A stretch of 64,000 bases of DNA, taken from the NCBI GenBank assembly GCA_027592785.1, contig JAQCLD010000004.1, positions 1 through 64,000 on the forward strand, given 5' to 3'. This DNA comes from Acidobacteriota bacterium. GTDB taxonomy: Bacteria; Acidobacteriota; Terriglobia; Bryobacterales; UBA6623. Under the pieces are notes generated by a model. That model made no database searches. It saw only the letters and a program-made list of their open reading frames with translations, and was not told where the DNA came from. The translations under genes were made by a program, and so were the position numbers. Below are positions 15,831 through 23,427 of this stretch, piece by piece. Position 1 is the first letter of the stretch; each line of letters starts with the position of its first letter.

Positions 15831-15934
15831 GCCGCTTCCTTGCGGCGCACTAGGCACGGTGCTAGGCTGTGAGATCTGGGCGATTTTCGCCTCCCGTCTT
15901 CTTCAGAGAAAAGGCCGAGGGAGTTTGTACGTTT

Positions 15935-17242
15935 ATGGACCGAATTGTTGACCTCGTCCGCAAGAAGCGAGACGCCGAGGAACTTACGCTTGAAGAGATC
16001 GAGCGTTTGATCAACGGCTACGCTCGGGGAGAGATCCAGGACTATCAGATGGCGGCCTTCCTCATGGCCGGCGCCTGCAACGACTTCTCCGAGGCGGAAG
16101 CCGCTTCGCTGACCACGGCCATGCTGCGTTGCGGGCAGCCCTTGGACCTCAGTGGAATCAATAAACCGAAGGTCGACACCCACTCCACCGGCGGTGTCGG
16201 TGACAAGGTCGGCATTATCGCCGCGCCCATCGCGGCTGCGGCTGGTTTGGCCGTGCCGGTTATCGCCGAGCCCGGATTCGGACATGTGGGCGGTACGCTC
16301 GACAAATTGCAGTCGATCCCGTCGTTCCGCACGGATCTGACCCGTGACGAGTTCATGGAAATCGTCGCAGCTCACGGTTTGGCCTTCGCGTCGCAATCGA
16401 ACGAGCTGGCCCCGGCGGACAAGAAGCTTTACTCATTGAGAGACGCGACAGCCACGGTGGATTCGCCGGCGCTGATTGCGGCCTCGGTGATGTCGAAGAA
16501 GATGGCCGAGGGGCTCGACGCGCTAGTGCTGGACGTCAAGGTCGGCCGCGGTTCGTTGCTCAAGAGCAAAACGGAATCTCGCCGCTTGGCGCAGCTAATG
16601 ATCACCATCGGTCGCCGTATGAATCTGCGGATTCAGGCGTTGCTGACGGACATGGATCAGCCGCTGGGCTACACGGTAGGAAACGCGCTCGAGATCATGG
16701 AAGCCTCGCAGACCCTGCAGGGTCAAGGTCCACAGGACTTAGCCGGCCTGGCCGTAGAAGTTGCGGCGAGGATGATTTATCTGGCCAAGAACGACGTCTC
16801 TTTGGAGACGGCGCGATCGACTGCGCAAGGCCTGCTGGACGACGGTTCGGCGTTTGCGGTGTTGCAGAACGTGATCCGCGCGCAGGGCGGTAACGCCGAC
16901 GCACTGACCCAGTTCGAATTGCTGCCGAATGCGACGGGCGAGCACATCATTACTTCGCCCCGCGAGGGCTACATCAGCCGCATCAACGCCGACGACATTG
17001 GTCGCGCCGCAGTCTTGCTGGGCTCCGGAAGAGAACGCATGGGCGACAACATTGACCCTGCGGTCGGCATCATTTTACAGGCGAAGGTAGGCGACGCTGT
17101 GGCCGCCGGCGCTGGACTTTGCGCCTTGTATTACACCGACGAAGCGCAGCTCACTGAAGCGGTTCAATTGGTTGAAGACGCCTTCCGGCTGTCTTCTAAT
17201 CAGCCCGAACCGCGAGACCTGGTTGTGGATCTAGTTCAATAG
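15935..17242 (+). CDS. Pyrimidine-nucleoside / thymidine phosphorylase
   Basis: VDTHSTGGVGDKVG, GFGHVGGTLDKLQSIPSF, KMAEGLDALVLDVKVG. Confidence 0.93.
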   Translation: MDRIVDLVRKKRDAEELTLEEIERLINGYARGEIQDYQMAAFLMAGACNDFSEAEAASLTTAMLRCGQPLDLSGINKPKVDTHSTGGVGDKVGIIAAPIAAAAGLAVPVIAEPGFGHVGGTLDKLQSIPSFRTDLTRDEFMEIVAAHGLAFASQSNELAPADKKLYSLRDATATVDSPALIAASVMSKKMAEGLDALVLDVKVGRGSLLKSKTESRRLAQLMITIGRRMNLRIQALLTDMDQPLGYTVGNALEIMEASQTLQGQGPQDLAGLAVEVAARMIYLAKNDVSLETARSTAQGLLDDGSAFAVLQNVIRAQGGNADALTQFELLPNATGEHIITSPREGYISRINADDIGRAAVLLGSGRERMGDNIDPAVGIILQAKVGDAVAAGAGLCALYYTDEAQLTEAVQLVEDAFRLSSNQPEPRDLVVDLVQ

Positions 17243-17266: not shown

Positions 17267-17314
17267 CGCTTACCGCTGTGCCCTTCCGGGTTGGCGGGCC
17301 TCCTGGAGAGCCAT

Positions 17315-18529
17315 ATGGGCCTGCTGGGTATTCTTCTCATCTTGTTGGCGGCTTACGGCCTGTCGAAAGACCGGGCAGCTATCCAGTGGCGAATTGTCTA
17401 CTGGGGCCTGGGGCTGCAATGCGCGCTGGCGGTCTTGCTGCTCAAGACTCCGGCGCGAGTCGTCTTCGAAGTCATTGGCGCGGGCTTTAACTCGTTGATG
17501 GGATTCGCCGAAGAGGGCTCGAAGTTTGTATTTGGCGCGGAACTGGGTTCCGGGACGGGCGCGCAGGGCGTGATCATCGCCTTTCAGGTGCTGCCGCTGA
17601 TCATTTTCGTGGCCTCGTTTTTCGCCGTGCTGTACTACCTGGGCGTCATGCAGCGAGTGGTGCGGGTGATGGCCTTGGCAATGCAGAAGACGCTCGGCGT
17701 AAGCGGAGCGGAGGCCTTGAATGTGGCGGCGAACGTCTTCATGGGACAAAGCGAGGCGCCGCTGACGATTCGCCCATATCTCGACCGGCTAACGCGGTCG
17801 GAACTGATGAGCGTGATGACCGGCGGCATGGCCACAATCTCCGGCGCGTTGATGGTGGCCTATACGCAGATCTCCGGCGTCCCCGTGGAGCATCTACTCA
17901 CGGCGGTGGTCATTAGCGCACCGGGGTGCATCATGCTGGCCAAGATCATGGTTCCCGAGACGGGCGAACCGGAGACGCGCGGCAGCGTCCCCACCCAAGC
18001 GGGCGACCAAGACAGCAACATCATCGACGCGGCCGCACGCGGCGCTGGAGAGGGCCTGTATCTGTCGCTGCAAGTCGGCGCTATGCTCGTTGCGTTCGTC
18101 GGCCTGGTCGCGCTGCTTAACGGAATCATGGGCGGCGTCCGCGATGCCAGCGGATTGATGTGGCTGCCGCCGAATCTGCAGACGATCTTGGGATTCCTAT
18201 TTGCTCCGGTCGCTTTTGTGATTGGCGTCCCCTGGGCCGACGCTCTGGCCGTCGGCAACTTGTTGGGTTTGCGAATGGTGCTGAACGAGTTTCTGGCGTA
18301 TGTGGACTTAGCGGCCTTACGAGAAAATTTGGATCCCAGGTCCTTCCTGATCGCCGGATATGCGCTGTGCGGATTCGCTAACTTCGGCTCCATCGGCGTA
18401 CAGGTGGGAGGCCTCGGCTCGCTGATACCCAAACGACGCAGCGAATTGGCCGAACTGGGACTGCTGGCGATGGCCGCCGGTATGATGGCAAACTTCCTGA
18501 CGGCATCCATGGCGGGACTGCTGACGTGA
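17315..18529 (+). CDS. Concentrative nucleoside transporter (CNT/NupC family)
   Basis: MGLLGILLILLAAYGLSKDR...NVFMGQSEAPLTIRPYL...MTGGMATISGALMVAY...GNLLGLRMVLNEFLAY...CGFANFGSIGVQVGG. Confidence 0.93.
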   Translation: MGLLGILLILLAAYGLSKDRAAIQWRIVYWGLGLQCALAVLLLKTPARVVFEVIGAGFNSLMGFAEEGSKFVFGAELGSGTGAQGVIIAFQVLPLIIFVASFFAVLYYLGVMQRVVRVMALAMQKTLGVSGAEALNVAANVFMGQSEAPLTIRPYLDRLTRSELMSVMTGGMATISGALMVAYTQISGVPVEHLLTAVVISAPGCIMLAKIMVPETGEPETRGSVPTQAGDQDSNIIDAAARGAGEGLYLSLQVGAMLVAFVGLVALLNGIMGGVRDASGLMWLPPNLQTILGFLFAPVAFVIGVPWADALAVGNLLGLRMVLNEFLAYVDLAALRENLDPRSFLIAGYALCGFANFGSIGVQVGGLGSLIPKRRSELAELGLLAMAAGMMANFLTASMAGLLT

Positions 18530-19107
18530 TCGAAACCAGACTCATCATCGAGGCCCTAGTGGCCTTTCTGATCGGATCGATCCCGTTCGCCGTGCTGGCG
18601 ATGATGGGTTCGGGCATCGACATTCGTAAGGTTGGTTCGGGCAATCCCGGCTTCAACAACGTGTTGCGGGTCAACAAGCCACGTGCCCTGTTGACCTTGG
18701 CGGGAGACATGCTCAAGGGTTATGCCCCAGCGGCGATCTTCTATCAACCAGGTGTTGACCCCTACTTTCATGGTTGGCTGCTGGGTTTCGCGGCGGTGTT
18801 TGGTCACTGTTACTCGCCGTTTTTGAAGTTCAACGGAGGGAAGGGAATTGCCACTTCGGCGGGAGTCATGTTGCGGCTGTATCCCTTGCTGGCTGCCGCG
18901 GGGCTGGCCTTCTTCGTGTTGGTTCGTGTGACCGGATCGCGCTTTCGTGTGCCAGAGTCGGGGGCTATCGCGTCGGTCGCGACTTGGCTGTTTTTCGCTC
19001 TGCTGACGTACCTCTACGTTGATTCCTTCGCCGTACGCATGGCGCTGCTGATGTCCGTGTTCTTAACCTGGCGCCACAAGTCGAACATACGGAATCTGTT
19101 TGACTAG
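18526..19107 (+). CDS. plsY: PlsY-like glycerol-3-phosphate acyltransferase
   Basis: GSGNPGFNNVLR, GDMLKGYAP, FGHCYSPFLKFNGGKGIATSAGV; multi-TM; overlaps nupC stop (GTGA). Confidence 0.83.
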   Translation: MIETRLIIEALVAFLIGSIPFAVLAMMGSGIDIRKVGSGNPGFNNVLRVNKPRALLTLAGDMLKGYAPAAIFYQPGVDPYFHGWLLGFAAVFGHCYSPFLKFNGGKGIATSAGVMLRLYPLLAAAGLAFFVLVRVTGSRFRVPESGAIASVATWLFFALLTYLYVDSFAVRMALLMSVFLTWRHKSNIRNLFD

Positions 19108-19119
19108 AAGTCCAAGACT

Positions 19120-19785
19120 TTGAAGGCCGCTTTCTACGACTTTGACGGAACGTTGGCGTCGAGCAACGTCGTGACGAGGTACCTGTACTTCGCCCGCCGC
19201 TGCCCGTCGCCGTTGGAGAGTTTCTATCGGACGGCGGTGGCCGTGGGCGGCGTCCCTTTTTGGCTGTTGATCGACGCTTGGTCACGTGCGGCCTTCAATC
19301 GGCAGTTTTTCGGGCTCTACGCCGGGCTGTCCGAGTCGTGGTTGAGGGTAGAAGCCGCAGGGCTCTTTGAGCAGGAGACGCGGGGCAAGATCTACGCCGG
19401 GAGCAGGGAACTGTTGGAACGCGACCGGCAAGCAGGTTACACGTTGATTCTGGTCACCGGCGGCCTGGATTTTGCGGTTGAGCGGGCCTCGACAGAGCTG
19501 GGGTTCGATCATTTGCTGGCGAACAAAATGGTATTCTCTGACGGAGTCGCCACGGGCCATTTGCACGAACCACTTTTGGCTGAACAAGGAAAAACCGACG
19601 CCATGCGGCACTTCTGCTACGAGCATGGCGTAGATCCAAGTAGCTTGAAAGCTTACTCAGACAGTTACTCGGACCTGGCCATGCTGGAAATGGCCGCACA
19701 ACCCACCGCCGTCAATCCGGATCGGAAGCTGAGTCGCATCGCGGCCGAACGGGGATGGCCTACGGTCGTCACCAAGGGCAAGTAA
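19120..19785 (+). CDS. HAD-IB family hydrolase (SerB-like phosphatase)
   Basis: FYDFDGTLASSNV, LILVTGGLDFAVE, KAYSDSYSDLAMLEM. Confidence 0.85.
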   Translation: MKAAFYDFDGTLASSNVVTRYLYFARRCPSPLESFYRTAVAVGGVPFWLLIDAWSRAAFNRQFFGLYAGLSESWLRVEAAGLFEQETRGKIYAGSRELLERDRQAGYTLILVTGGLDFAVERASTELGFDHLLANKMVFSDGVATGHLHEPLLAEQGKTDAMRHFCYEHGVDPSSLKAYSDSYSDLAMLEMAAQPTAVNPDRKLSRIAAERGWPTVVTKGK

Positions 19786-19787
19786 GA

Positions 19788-21497
19788 ATGGCCGCTGACA
19801 CCATCCATCCTGTTGCGCCTTCCGAAGCGTTTGAGTTCGGCGACCCGACTCCGAATGCGGTAGGCCGCGCAGCGCTCGTTTCGTATGAGCACTGCGTCGT
19901 TCACTTGGAAGAGGATTCGCGGCCGCGGCTGTTGTGGTCCGGCGAAGACTTAGTTAGCGCCAAACTGCCGAAAGATACGCGCGTCATTTATCCCAAGCCG
20001 ACAATCGCACCGTTGAAAGACCGCGACGCGGCGATCCGCTATGCGCTAGAACACCCGGAAGACGCCAAGCCGCTCCCGGCGCAGCTGCGTCCGGGGATGA
20101 AGGTCACAGTGGCTATCGACGACATCTCCCTGCCGCTGCCGCCGATGCGCCGGCCGGATCTGCGCCAGACGGTGTTGGAAATCGTCCTCGAGATGCTCGC
20201 CGAGCACGGCGTCACCGATGTGGAGTTGATCATCGCCACCTCGTTCCACCGGCGGATGGAGGCTTTTGAGATTCGTCACGCGGTAGGCGAAAAGGTCTTC
20301 AAGGCGTACTTCCCGACGAAGCTGTATTGTCATGACGGCGAAGCGATTGACGGCATGGTCGAGTTGGGCCGCACCGAACTGGGCGAAGCCGTGAGGATGA
20401 ATCGCCGCGCGGCGGAATCGGACCTGCTCATCTACGTCAACATCAACTTGGTGCCGATGGACGGTGGGGCCAAGAGCATCGCCATCGGATTGTGCGATTA
20501 CGCAGCGCTTCAAGCCCACCACAACCCGAAGACCATACGCGACTCGAATTCGTACTTCGATCCTGGCAAGTCGGAACTAGCGTCGTCGGCCGAAAGACAG
20601 GCCGCTGTCATCAAACAGCACCTCAACTGCTTTCACATCGAGACGGTCGTCAACAATCAGATGTTCGACCCGCTGATGCCCTTCTTCACCAAGAACGAAG
20701 ACGACTGGAATTTGCTGGATCGCACGGCGTTCGGCGTCTCGAAATGGGCTTTGAGCAAGATGCCGCGGCAGACCAAACGCGACTTGTTGTTCAAGATTCT
20801 TTCGCCTTACGGCTTAATCGCCGTTCACGCCGGCGAGACGAACGCGACGCACGCCAAGACGCTGGCTTACTGCAACCAGCAGTACTGCATCCCCGTCGAA
20901 GGCCAGTCGGACGTGGCGGTGATGGGCGTTCCGTTTGTGTCGCCGTACAACGTTCATTCGGCGTTGAACCCGATCTTGGTGCAGGTGATGGTGTTGGGCT
21001 ATTTGTTCAACATGTACCGGGGCATGCCCATCGTCAAACAAGGCGGCGTGCTGATCGTTACGCATCCGCTGTACAACGAGTTCGACCGCAAGCACCACCC
21101 TTCGTATCACGAGTTTTTCCATCGCGTGCTGCCCGAGACCACCGACGCCTTTCAATTGGCGCGCAAGTACGAGGCGGAGTTCGCCGCTAACCCGGAATAC
21201 ATTGAGCAGTACCGCACCGGCTACGCCTATCACGGCGTCCATCCGTTCTACATGTGGTACTGGGGCGAGAATGGCCGGGCGCACGTTGGCAAGGTAATCT
21301 GCGTCGGCGCCGAAGACAAGCGTACAGCCGAGGTCATGGGTTGGGAAACGGCCAAGAGCATGGCTGAGGCGCTGGAAATGGCGCAGTCCTTCGTTGGCCG
21401 CAAGCCCAGTGTGACCCACGTGCACATCCCTCCGATCAGCATGGTCGACGTCATGGGCGTGCCGCAGCATGTCTCGGGAGAGGATGCGTCGCGGTGA
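19788..21497 (+). CDS. LarA-like (DUF2088, lactate racemase-type) protein, extended ~569 aa
   Basis: IIATSFHRRMEAFEIRHAVG (LarA HRxM region), GGAKSIAIGLCDYAALQAHHNP (LarA GGxKS...H region). Confidence 0.8.
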   Translation: MAADTIHPVAPSEAFEFGDPTPNAVGRAALVSYEHCVVHLEEDSRPRLLWSGEDLVSAKLPKDTRVIYPKPTIAPLKDRDAAIRYALEHPEDAKPLPAQLRPGMKVTVAIDDISLPLPPMRRPDLRQTVLEIVLEMLAEHGVTDVELIIATSFHRRMEAFEIRHAVGEKVFKAYFPTKLYCHDGEAIDGMVELGRTELGEAVRMNRRAAESDLLIYVNINLVPMDGGAKSIAIGLCDYAALQAHHNPKTIRDSNSYFDPGKSELASSAERQAAVIKQHLNCFHIETVVNNQMFDPLMPFFTKNEDDWNLLDRTAFGVSKWALSKMPRQTKRDLLFKILSPYGLIAVHAGETNATHAKTLAYCNQQYCIPVEGQSDVAVMGVPFVSPYNVHSALNPILVQVMVLGYLFNMYRGMPIVKQGGVLIVTHPLYNEFDRKHHPSYHEFFHRVLPETTDAFQLARKYEAEFAANPEYIEQYRTGYAYHGVHPFYMWYWGENGRAHVGKVICVGAEDKRTAEVMGWETAKSMAEALEMAQSFVGRKPSVTHVHIPPISMVDVMGVPQHVSGEDASR

Positions 21498-22471
21498 AGA
21501 CGATTCTGATCACCGGCGCGACGGGCTTTCTGGGGACGCACCTGATCTCCAAGCTTCGCAGCGAAGAACCTGAGGCACGGCTGCGCGTCATGGTCAGGGG
21601 GACAGGACCAACCACGCAGATGGACGGCGTCGAAGTCGTTCGCGGCGATATCACCAAAAGCGCCGAAGTGATTGCTGCTGCTGTGGGCGTTGATGAGATC
21701 TACCACGCGGCAGGCTTCGTGGAACGTCAGTCCTTGCGGCCTTGGCGGCTCTACGGCGCCCACGTGGAAGGCACGCGCAACGTCTGCGAAGCCATGCTGG
21801 CGCACGGAGTAAAGAAAGCGGTCTTCGTCTCCAGTTCAGGTACCTGCGCTGTCGGCGCCGATCCGGTTGACCGCGATGAGACGGCGCCGTTTTCGCAGCA
21901 GGTCGTTTGGAACTGGCCCTATTACCTGAGCAAGATCTACGCCGAGAAGTTGTCGGAGTGGTACGTGCAGCATCGCGACTTGGACATTGTCCAGGTCAAC
22001 CCGACGCTGCTGTTGGGACCCGGTGACGAAAGAAGGTCCTCGACCGGCGATGTGGAGCTATTCCTCAAAGGCGGCATCATGGTACTGCCCTCGGGCGGCC
22101 TCAACATCGTCGATGTTCGCGACGCCGCCATGGGTTTGATCTTGGCTATGCGCAAGGGCCGCAAGGGCGAACGGTATCTGCTGGGAGGAGCGAACATGAC
22201 CTTCCACGAGTGGATTCAACGGACCGCCAAGATTGCCGGCATTTCCGCACCCAAACTCATGTTGCCCTTGCCGCTGCAACTCTGGGGCGCACGCATCATG
22301 CGCCGGCTGTTGCCGCTCGTAGGCAAACGCTGGGAACTCGACGACGCTTCAATCCAGATGTCCGCGGTGTATTGGTATTGCAGTTCCAAGAAGGCGCGCG
22401 ACGAGCTGGGCTTTGAAACTCGCGACCCGCAAGAAACGTTGACCGAGACAGTGGCCTACCTACGCACGTAA
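21494..22471 (+). CDS. NAD-dependent epimerase/dehydratase (extended SDR)
   Basis: ILITGATGFLGTHLISKL (Rossmann GxxGxxG), SSSGTCAVG, YYLSKIYAE (YxxxK). Confidence 0.9.
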   Translation: MKTILITGATGFLGTHLISKLRSEEPEARLRVMVRGTGPTTQMDGVEVVRGDITKSAEVIAAAVGVDEIYHAAGFVERQSLRPWRLYGAHVEGTRNVCEAMLAHGVKKAVFVSSSGTCAVGADPVDRDETAPFSQQVVWNWPYYLSKIYAEKLSEWYVQHRDLDIVQVNPTLLLGPGDERRSSTGDVELFLKGGIMVLPSGGLNIVDVRDAAMGLILAMRKGRKGERYLLGGANMTFHEWIQRTAKIAGISAPKLMLPLPLQLWGARIMRRLLPLVGKRWELDDASIQMSAVYWYCSSKKARDELGFETRDPQETLTETVAYLRT

Positions 22472-22476
22472 AGCTG

Positions 22477-23427
22477 ATGGCTGAAGCGGTCGCGATTCTG
22501 AATCCCCAAGCAGCAGGCGGCAGCGTTCGGGGCCGCTGGCCCCAGTACGAGGCGGCGCTTCGACAACGTATCCCCCAACTGCAGGTTCTTTGGAGCGAGC
22601 GGCCTTGGCATGCGGCGGAGTTGACCCAGCAGGCCTTGGAACGCGGCGCCGAACTGATCATTGCCGTTGGCGGCGACGGTACGCTGCATGAAGTGGTCAA
22701 TGGATTTCTCTCACACGACGCGCCGCTGAACCCACTAGCGCGTTTGGGGTACGTGCCGATGGGTACAGGGGGAGATTTCCAACGGACGCTTCAGGCCCCC
22801 GTCGAGCCCGAACTGGCGGCGGCGTATCTTGCCAACGGGCGAGTAACCGCGATCGATGTCGGCAAGGTGCGCTTTGTTGGGCCCGGGGACGAAACCGTCT
22901 TACAGCGGTACTTCATCAACCTGTTGAGTTTCGGCATGGGGGGAGATGTCTCGGTAGCGGCCAAGAAGAACATCTTCTCTAAAATCAATGGCAAAGCCGC
23001 ATTCCTTTGGGCGACGCTTCAAGTCTTCTTCCGTTATCGAGGAAAGTCCGTGGATCTGCTGTTCGACGACGGGGAGACGCTGCACGATGTCGATATCACC
23101 AACGTTGCTGTAGGCAATGGCCAGTACCACGGCGGCGGTATGCATCCCTGTCCTGAGGCTTCGCTGACCAGTGGCTTGCTCGACGTGACCATCATCGACC
23201 ATCTCTCATGGTTTGAACTCCTGCGGGATTTGCCGGTGCTCTACTCCGACGCCATCTACAAACATCCCAAGGTTCATCGGCGGCAGGTTCGTAAGTTGGT
23301 CGCCCGTTCAGCGGACCTTACCCGCGCGGAAGTCGACGGTGAGGCGGCAGGTGCGTTGCCGCTTGAGATTACTGTTCTGCCCGGTGTCCTGCCTATGCTC
23401 TGGCCCGCCGGTCGGGAACTGCGCTAG
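22477..23427 (+). CDS. Diacylglycerol kinase-family lipid kinase
   Basis: VAILNPQAAGGSVRGRW, IIAVGGDGTLHEVVNGF, GYVPMGTGGDFQRTL. Confidence 0.92.
   Translation: MAEAVAILNPQAAGGSVRGRWPQYEAALRQRIPQLQVLWSERPWHAAELTQQALERGAELIIAVGGDGTLHEVVNGFLSHDAPLNPLARLGYVPMGTGGDFQRTLQAPVEPELAAAYLANGRVTAIDVGKVRFVGPGDETVLQRYFINLLSFGMGGDVSVAAKKNIFSKINGKAAFLWATLQVFFRYRGKSVDLLFDDGETLHDVDITNVAVGNGQYHGGGMHPCPEASLTSGLLDVTIIDHLSWFELLRDLPVLYSDAIYKHPKVHRRQVRKLVARSADLTRAEVDGEAAGALPLEITVLPGVLPMLWPAGRELR

Follow-up and report, generated by a model that had tools for sequence, protein, structure and literature searches.

A rearranged elb-type operon in an acidobacterium probably encodes the LarA-like protein ElbC

What is a LarA-like protein doing in a run of lipid genes? 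The question is raised by contig JAQCLD010000004.1 of an Acidobacteriota bacterium (assembly GCA_027592785.1), whose first 64,000 nucleotides are the window analyzed here. In the list of open reading frames (ORFs), five plus-strand genes run head to tail from 18526 to 23427, overlapping or separated by spacers of at most 12 bp. They encode an acyltransferase of the PlsY family, an HAD-IB phosphatase, the LarA-like protein (LarAH), an extended SDR and a lipid kinase (DAGK). All five ORFs, their strand and the families given to them in the initial annotation were confirmed, and each protein is backed by Pfam and NCBIfam matches. That annotation had also proposed that the LarA-like protein is built into a single lipid pathway, and that the combination was undescribed. 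The first proposal was borne out, and the genes co-occur elsewhere. The second was not: the locus, PlsY-ElbB-ElbC-ElbE-DAGK, is very likely an acidobacterial operon for ether lipid biosynthesis (elb) in rearranged form, in which the LarA-like protein is ElbC. This degree of confidence applies to the elb-type assignment and to the identity of ElbC; an ether-forming step by ElbC is weighed separately below.

Relationship to the elb cluster

For the elb operon that Lorenzen et al. (2014) found in Myxococcus xanthus, a 2022 review (PMC9131029) lists elbA, an SDR gene; elbB, an HAD gene; elbC, of "unknown function"; elbD, a multidomain gene; and elbE, a second SDR gene. In Myxococcus sp. CA023 (locus L151; L numbers denote loci, G numbers genomes and C numbers contigs), we found on one strand genes for an SDR, an HAD protein, LarAH, a FAR-ACS-ACP-AT protein of 1474 residues and another SDR. 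The LarAH protein of this locus scores 849 bits on NF052592, the NCBIfam model for LarAH14/15/16, which is named NPN-dependent hydroxyacid isomerase and has a cut-off of 740 bits. Judged by family and order, SDR-HAD-LarAH-ElbD-SDR matches the described elbA-elbE, and we infer that ElbC of M. xanthus is the same protein as that of Myxococcus sp. CA023. The window proteins align with their CA023 counterparts over nearly their full length: the HAD protein with ElbB at 40% identity over 218 residues, LarAH with ElbC at 54% over 526 and the SDR with ElbE at 40% over 320. These orthologs of ElbB, ElbC and ElbE stand in the conserved order. No ElbD (FAR-ACS-ACP-AT) lies between ElbC and ElbE, whose ORFs overlap by 4 bp, and we therefore term the locus an elb-type variant and not a canonical elb operon.

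The initial annotation would have been refuted by a failure of the five genes to co-occur outside this genome; they do co-occur, and their order proved to be conserved across Acidobacteriota and Myxococcota. Two surveys bear on this point, one of 396 Acidobacteriota genomes, 36 of which exceed the cut-off of the ElbC family model, and one of 80 loci in named genomes of Acidobacteriota, Myxococcota and a few others. The core gene set was found again in dozens of genomes. HAD-LarAH-ElbD-SDR is the most frequent order among the 80 loci (exact in 26), and an HAD gene lies 5' of LarAH in 57 of the 63 loci with sufficient flank. PlsY is linked to HAD-LarAH-SDR-DAGK in L075, L076, L079, L081, L083, L084, L089 and L129, and DAGK follows the SDR gene in the non-fused acidobacterial operons L075-L077, L079, L082, L084-L086, L089 and L129. 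The last of these, from Acidobacteriota RI_231, has the same order as the window (IMPase-TP-NupC-PlsY-HAD-LarAH-SDR-DAGK) and is the only locus to share its NupC neighbor. A single copy of PlsY was found in the window's own genome, so this enzyme must serve ordinary phospholipid synthesis too, a point in favor of an accidental grouping of a LarA homolog with housekeeping lipid genes. That explanation is hardly credible, being largely refuted by a gene order conserved over two phyla and by a presence profile shared with FAR.

In most relatives, a protein of about 1450-1480 residues lies between LarAH and the SDR. It combines a fatty acyl reductase (FAR) with an acyl-AMP ligase, an ACP and a PlsC-type acyltransferase, which is the architecture of ElbD. 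The non-fused operons, that of the window among them, form one clade in the ElbC tree (100% SH-aLRT). Within such operons, FAR stands alone between ElbC and ElbE in L041, L085 and L086, and the order FAR-ligase-PlsY-HAD-LarAH-SDR occurs in L076, L081, L084 and L089, with DAGK as well in three of these. The window's own genome encodes a stand-alone FAR (E = 4.6e-222; 42% identity to the FAR of L041) on contig C74, where an ACP-acyl ligase gene comes next and the base composition is similar to that of the window. The stand-alone FAR and the ACP-acyl ligase are likely a relocated, non-fused substitute for ElbD. The catalytic histidine of the HxxxxD acyltransferase motif is gone in seven of eight non-fused ligases, including the one in this genome, and PlsY is encoded beside most of the eight, suggesting that PlsY has taken over acyl transfer. 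In the survey of 396 genomes, the FAR profile detected FAR or ElbD in 39 of the 40 ElbC-bearing genomes compared to 26 of the 356 without ElbC (Fisher p = 2.6e-35, a value inflated by the lack of correction for relatedness), and the linkage is also local in gene order.

Two further observations concern these gene sets. The non-fused acidobacterial operon is also carried by L082 (VFZE01000053.1), a contig labeled Acidimicrobiia whose ElbC falls inside the acidobacterial clade, indicating misbinning or transfer. In addition, eleven Acidobacteriota genomes (L164-L174) have a conserved cluster that contains no ElbC and encodes an HAD-FAR fusion of about 780-830 residues, an acyl ligase, a PF04230 (polysaccharide pyruvyl transferase-like) protein and, in most of them, a second FAR/SDR-like protein.

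Several findings weigh against the assignment to elb or against a central place for ElbC in it. In the window's own genome, the FAR and ligase genes are on another contig, and no operon link between them and the window genes was seen there. With an ACP-first domain order and only 24% identity to the ligase part of ElbD, the ligase is a substitute and no simple fragment of that protein. Divergent ElbD-like proteins occur without ElbC in some genomes (for example G104, G156 and G172), and in G376, a genome listed as complete, an ElbB-like HAD gene abuts FAR with no ElbC between them (L160, G376:C84). The published genetics implicate elbD and elbE, and the review reports no test of elbC (PMC9131029). 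Finally, some elbD-bearing bacteria, Pontiella among them, have no detected ether lipids (PMC11868695).

This last point, the constancy of FAR as a partner of ElbC and the presence of FAR in a separate, ElbC-free acidobacterial cluster would all fit a product other than a glycerol ether, such as a wax ester or another fatty-alcohol-derived or neutral storage lipid. However, M. xanthus strains mutated in elbD or elbE lose their ether lipids (PMC9131029), and the PlsY and lipid kinase genes of the non-fused operons point to glycerophospholipid chemistry. We therefore regard a different lipid product as unlikely and retain the assignment to elb.

Fold and catalytic residues of ElbC

The AlphaFold2 model of ElbC (pLDDT 92.9) has as its best Foldseek match 9q3k, the single-histidine LarA_Sp (E = 9e-34; TM-score 0.84 on the target), and a sequence profile also matches ElbC to 9q3k (1e-60). 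As modeled, ElbC has the LarA fold, and its score on NF052592 exceeds the cut-off of that family (Table 1).

The initial annotation held that the catalytic positions of LarA were kept. This was correct for H108, K184 and H200, whose equivalents do not vary among 135 homologs, but not for H174 and R75, which are missing. K184, the covalent cofactor anchor of LarA, and H200, its nickel ligand, correspond to K240 and H256 in the numbering of the 580-residue ORF, and this cofactor-binding pair is present in every homolog. The histidine pair of a racemase (H108 and H174) is not: throughout the family, there is no histidine at the position of H174 and the loop is shortened. In place of the D-x-x-R-P of LarA, ElbC has DDISLP, and the position of the cofactor-contacting R75 is occupied by Leu in 117 of the homologs, by V, M, I or Q in the rest and by Arg in none. 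Because H174 and R75 are missing, ordinary 2-hydroxyacid racemization is unlikely.

Earlier work on this superfamily is consistent with these observations. LarAH groups 14 and 15 are among those without H174 (PMC12611868), and the LarAH14 protein from Frankia showed no activity with any of seven hydroxyacids (PMC7583248). The latter study also proposed that LarAH proteins without H174 may shift the hydride to an adjacent site. The racemization or epimerization of a 2-hydroxyacid suggested by the initial annotation, for instance of a glycerate or sugar acid destined for a lipid headgroup, would agree with the name of the NCBIfam family and with the fact that every characterized LarA homolog acts on 2-hydroxyacids (PMC7583248, PMC11770544). 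By contrast, the second catalytic histidine is lacking across the family, the Frankia protein failed in all seven assays, and the cluster has no recurrent gene for handling a hydroxyacid. This activity was thus left unsupported, and we consider it very unlikely.

The nickel-pincer cofactor and a candidate ether-forming step

As the initial annotation stated, the window has no LarB, LarC or LarE gene. All three are present elsewhere in the genome (G000:C44:30343, C160:36886 and C199:47978). Their presence is not specific to ElbC because a second LarA-type protein is co-resident (G000:C171:17561-18160, L001; 434-residue frame; Lar_N 188 bits) and because four relatives lack all three genes. If ElbC is not the client of LarB, LarC and LarE, the C171 protein is the more likely one. 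Among the 40 genomes with ElbC, LarC exceeds its cut-off in 36, LarB in 35 and LarE in 33. LarC is found in 249 of the 356 genomes without ElbC (uncorrected p = 0.005 for the comparison). In thirteen genomes, ElbC is the sole match to the family model, and LarC is present in all thirteen. An argument for cofactor dependence from such co-occurrence was considered; it is suggestive and is contradicted by the four genomes that lack all three genes.

These four genomes (G141, G189, G227 and G283; loci L156, L155, L052 and L053) belong to one genus, are 97-98% complete and keep an ElbC with all of the conserved residues. Either the cofactor is taken up or ElbC is independent of it. Nothing else seen here speaks as strongly against a nickel mechanism, and they argue against a strict need for the cofactor. 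The same genomes provide a natural test of cofactor dependence or uptake.

ElbC may accordingly be a LarA-fold protein that has no use for the nickel-pincer cofactor; it might, for instance, catalyze acid-base chemistry or have a structural role beside FAR or ElbD. Beyond the four near-complete genomes, in which the invariant residues are intact, the absence of the LarA residues R75 and H174 speaks for this explanation, as does the exclusion of LarAH groups 12, 13 and 16 in PMC7583248 on the grounds that their cofactor residues are not conserved. On the other hand, K240 and H256 are invariant in all homologs, the closest solved fold, 9q3k, is loaded with the cofactor, the three biosynthesis genes are found in the large majority of ElbC genomes, and the four exceptions could import what they do not make. 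We regard a cofactor-free ElbC as a real possibility, though less likely than not.

How the cluster might build an ether can be outlined from these parts. In M. xanthus, ether lipids depend on elbD and elbE, with only a minor contribution from the homolog of alkylglycerone phosphate synthase (AGPS), and the review describes the route of the ElbD-dependent pathway to the alkyl ether as not known (PMC9131029). No AGPS was found among the FAD-oxidase_C proteins examined in the window's own genome, which is 94% complete; its three full FAD-oxidase_C proteins are of the D-lactate dehydrogenase type, from a PDB search, and of the GlcD and GlpC-fusion types, from reading of their sequences. Displacement of AGPS by ElbC in Acidobacteriota was also considered and dropped. 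It would place ElbC-free FAR genes in AGPS operons; these FARs are instead HAD-FAR fusions beside an SDR, a PF04230 protein and an acyl ligase, and no AGPS was seen with them.

As a conserved LarA-fold protein tied to FAR, ElbC is a candidate for the ether-forming step. Going by the domains, the ligase would charge its ACP with a fatty acid, which FAR would reduce toward a fatty aldehyde or alcohol; for ElbD, ACS and ACP activity has been published and the FAR step has not. PlsY would then produce 1-acyl-glycerol-3-phosphate in place of the decayed acyltransferase domain of the ligase, as family knowledge and the loss of its histidine suggest. In the third step, ElbC, with its one catalytic histidine, would carry out or assist the exchange in which the fatty alcohol takes the place of the sn-1 acyl group. 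Transient oxidation of the C2 hydroxyl, with hydride passed to the nickel-pincer cofactor, would yield an intermediate resembling acyl-dihydroxyacetone-phosphate; a substitution of the AGPS type on this intermediate would be followed by return of the hydride, and the C2 center would not be inverted. Alternatively, ElbE could be the agent of C2 reduction. Finally, ElbB would dephosphorylate the product to neutral alkylglycerols, and the lipid kinase could return these to the phospholipid pool. Formation of the glycerol ether bond by ElbC, through transient C2 oxidation with the nickel-pincer cofactor, is our inference alone; it is our lead hypothesis for ElbC, put forward as a tentative and rather doubtful proposal.

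Alkyl ether formation by the ElbD-dependent pathway of aerobic bacteria is relevant to plasmalogens, to signals in myxobacterial development and to the bacterial tetraethers that serve as climate proxies, and a LarA-fold protein tied to FAR provides a concrete candidate enzyme. The elb cluster itself was already known. What is new, as checked against open-access papers, is the rearranged variant and the identification of ElbC as a LarA-fold protein. No link between ElbC and LarA was found in the main texts of open-access papers, with Lorenzen et al. 2014 covered through reviews; the fields of nickel-pincer enzymes and bacterial ether lipids, with no connection found between them in that literature, are now linked. 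The non-fused operon also means that acidobacterial ether-lipid clusters can be overlooked when full-length ElbD is the only query. If the proposed chemistry is true, Myxococcota and Acidobacteriota would have in common an organometallic, AGPS-free route to ether lipids, and the LarA superfamily would gain a new type of reaction.

Features of the locus and comparison with known systems

Table 1 Genes of the elb-type operon and its upstream neighbors in the 64-kb window
Feature	Coordinates	Strand	Family evidence
PlsY (acyl-phosphate:glycerol-3-phosphate acyltransferase family)	18526..19107	+	PF02660 137.7 bits
HAD-IB phosphatase, ElbB-type	19120..19785	+	TIGR01490 101.8 bits, above cut-off
LarA-like (LarAH), probable ElbC, 569 residues from ATG 19788	19788..21497	+	NF052592 809 bits
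ElbE, extended SDR (NAD-dependent epimerase/dehydratase family)	21494..22471	+	PF01370 118 bits
YegS/DgkB-type lipid kinase (DAGK)	22477..23427	+	TIGR00147 125.8 bits, above cut-off
NupC-type (CNT) nucleoside transporter, neighbor	17291..18529	+	TIGR00804 400 bits
Pyrimidine-nucleoside (thymidine) phosphorylase, upstream neighbor	15869..17242	+	TIGR02644 472 bits

The operon is directly preceded by the genes for thymidine phosphorylase and the nucleoside transporter, as the initial annotation had it, and the transporter, whose ORF overlaps that of PlsY by 4 bp, is a translationally coupled neighbor. A thymidine phosphorylase gene is also found within about 8 kb of ElbC in L053, L056, L137, L150, L155 and L156, all from distant Acidobacteriota. 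Inside the operon, the spacers are 12 bp (PlsY-HAD), 2 bp (HAD-LarAH) and 5 bp (SDR-DAGK). ElbC has an alternative in-frame ATG at 19755; we take the start to be ATG 19788 because of the short intergenic spacing, if that is a guide. PlsY scores 130.5 bits on TIGR00023, slightly below the cut-off of 137.2. ElbE resembles HpnA and, at 211 bits on TIGR03466 compared to a cut-off of 367.65, falls outside that family. The next plus-strand gene encodes a sigma factor and starts 322 bp after DAGK. A promoter scan (0 found, 3.0 expected) and a terminator scan (12 found, 9.0 expected) were uninformative, and the 64-kb window has no tRNA and no Rfam match.

Of the known routes to ether lipids, synthesis of the AGPS type resembles our model in requiring a fatty alcohol made by FAR and an acyl-glycerol-phosphate precursor; it differs in its synthase, of which none was found in this genome. 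Among LarA proteins, ElbC is closest to LarA_Sp and LarA_Bw (PDB 9q3k and 9q3j; PMC12611868), with which it shares the fold, the equivalents of H108, K184 and H200 and the missing second catalytic histidine. Unlike them, at about 22% identity, ElbC has a shorter loop near position 174 with no Asn replacement, and its context is lipid genes whereas theirs is carbohydrate genes. The family name of NF052592 speaks of a hydroxyacid isomerase, but we found no demonstrated activity, and its group 14 member from Frankia was the inactive protein of PMC7583248. The closest comparison remains the elb operon of M. xanthus. The window differs from it in having no ElbA gene directly upstream and no ElbD between ElbC and ElbE. 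FAR and an ACP-first acyl ligase with a degenerate acyltransferase domain are instead separate genes on another contig, and PlsY and a lipid kinase are in the operon. What the two have in common are the HAD, LarAH and SDR genes, in the same order and on the same strand, and a genome that supplies the FAR, acyl ligase and ACP functions.

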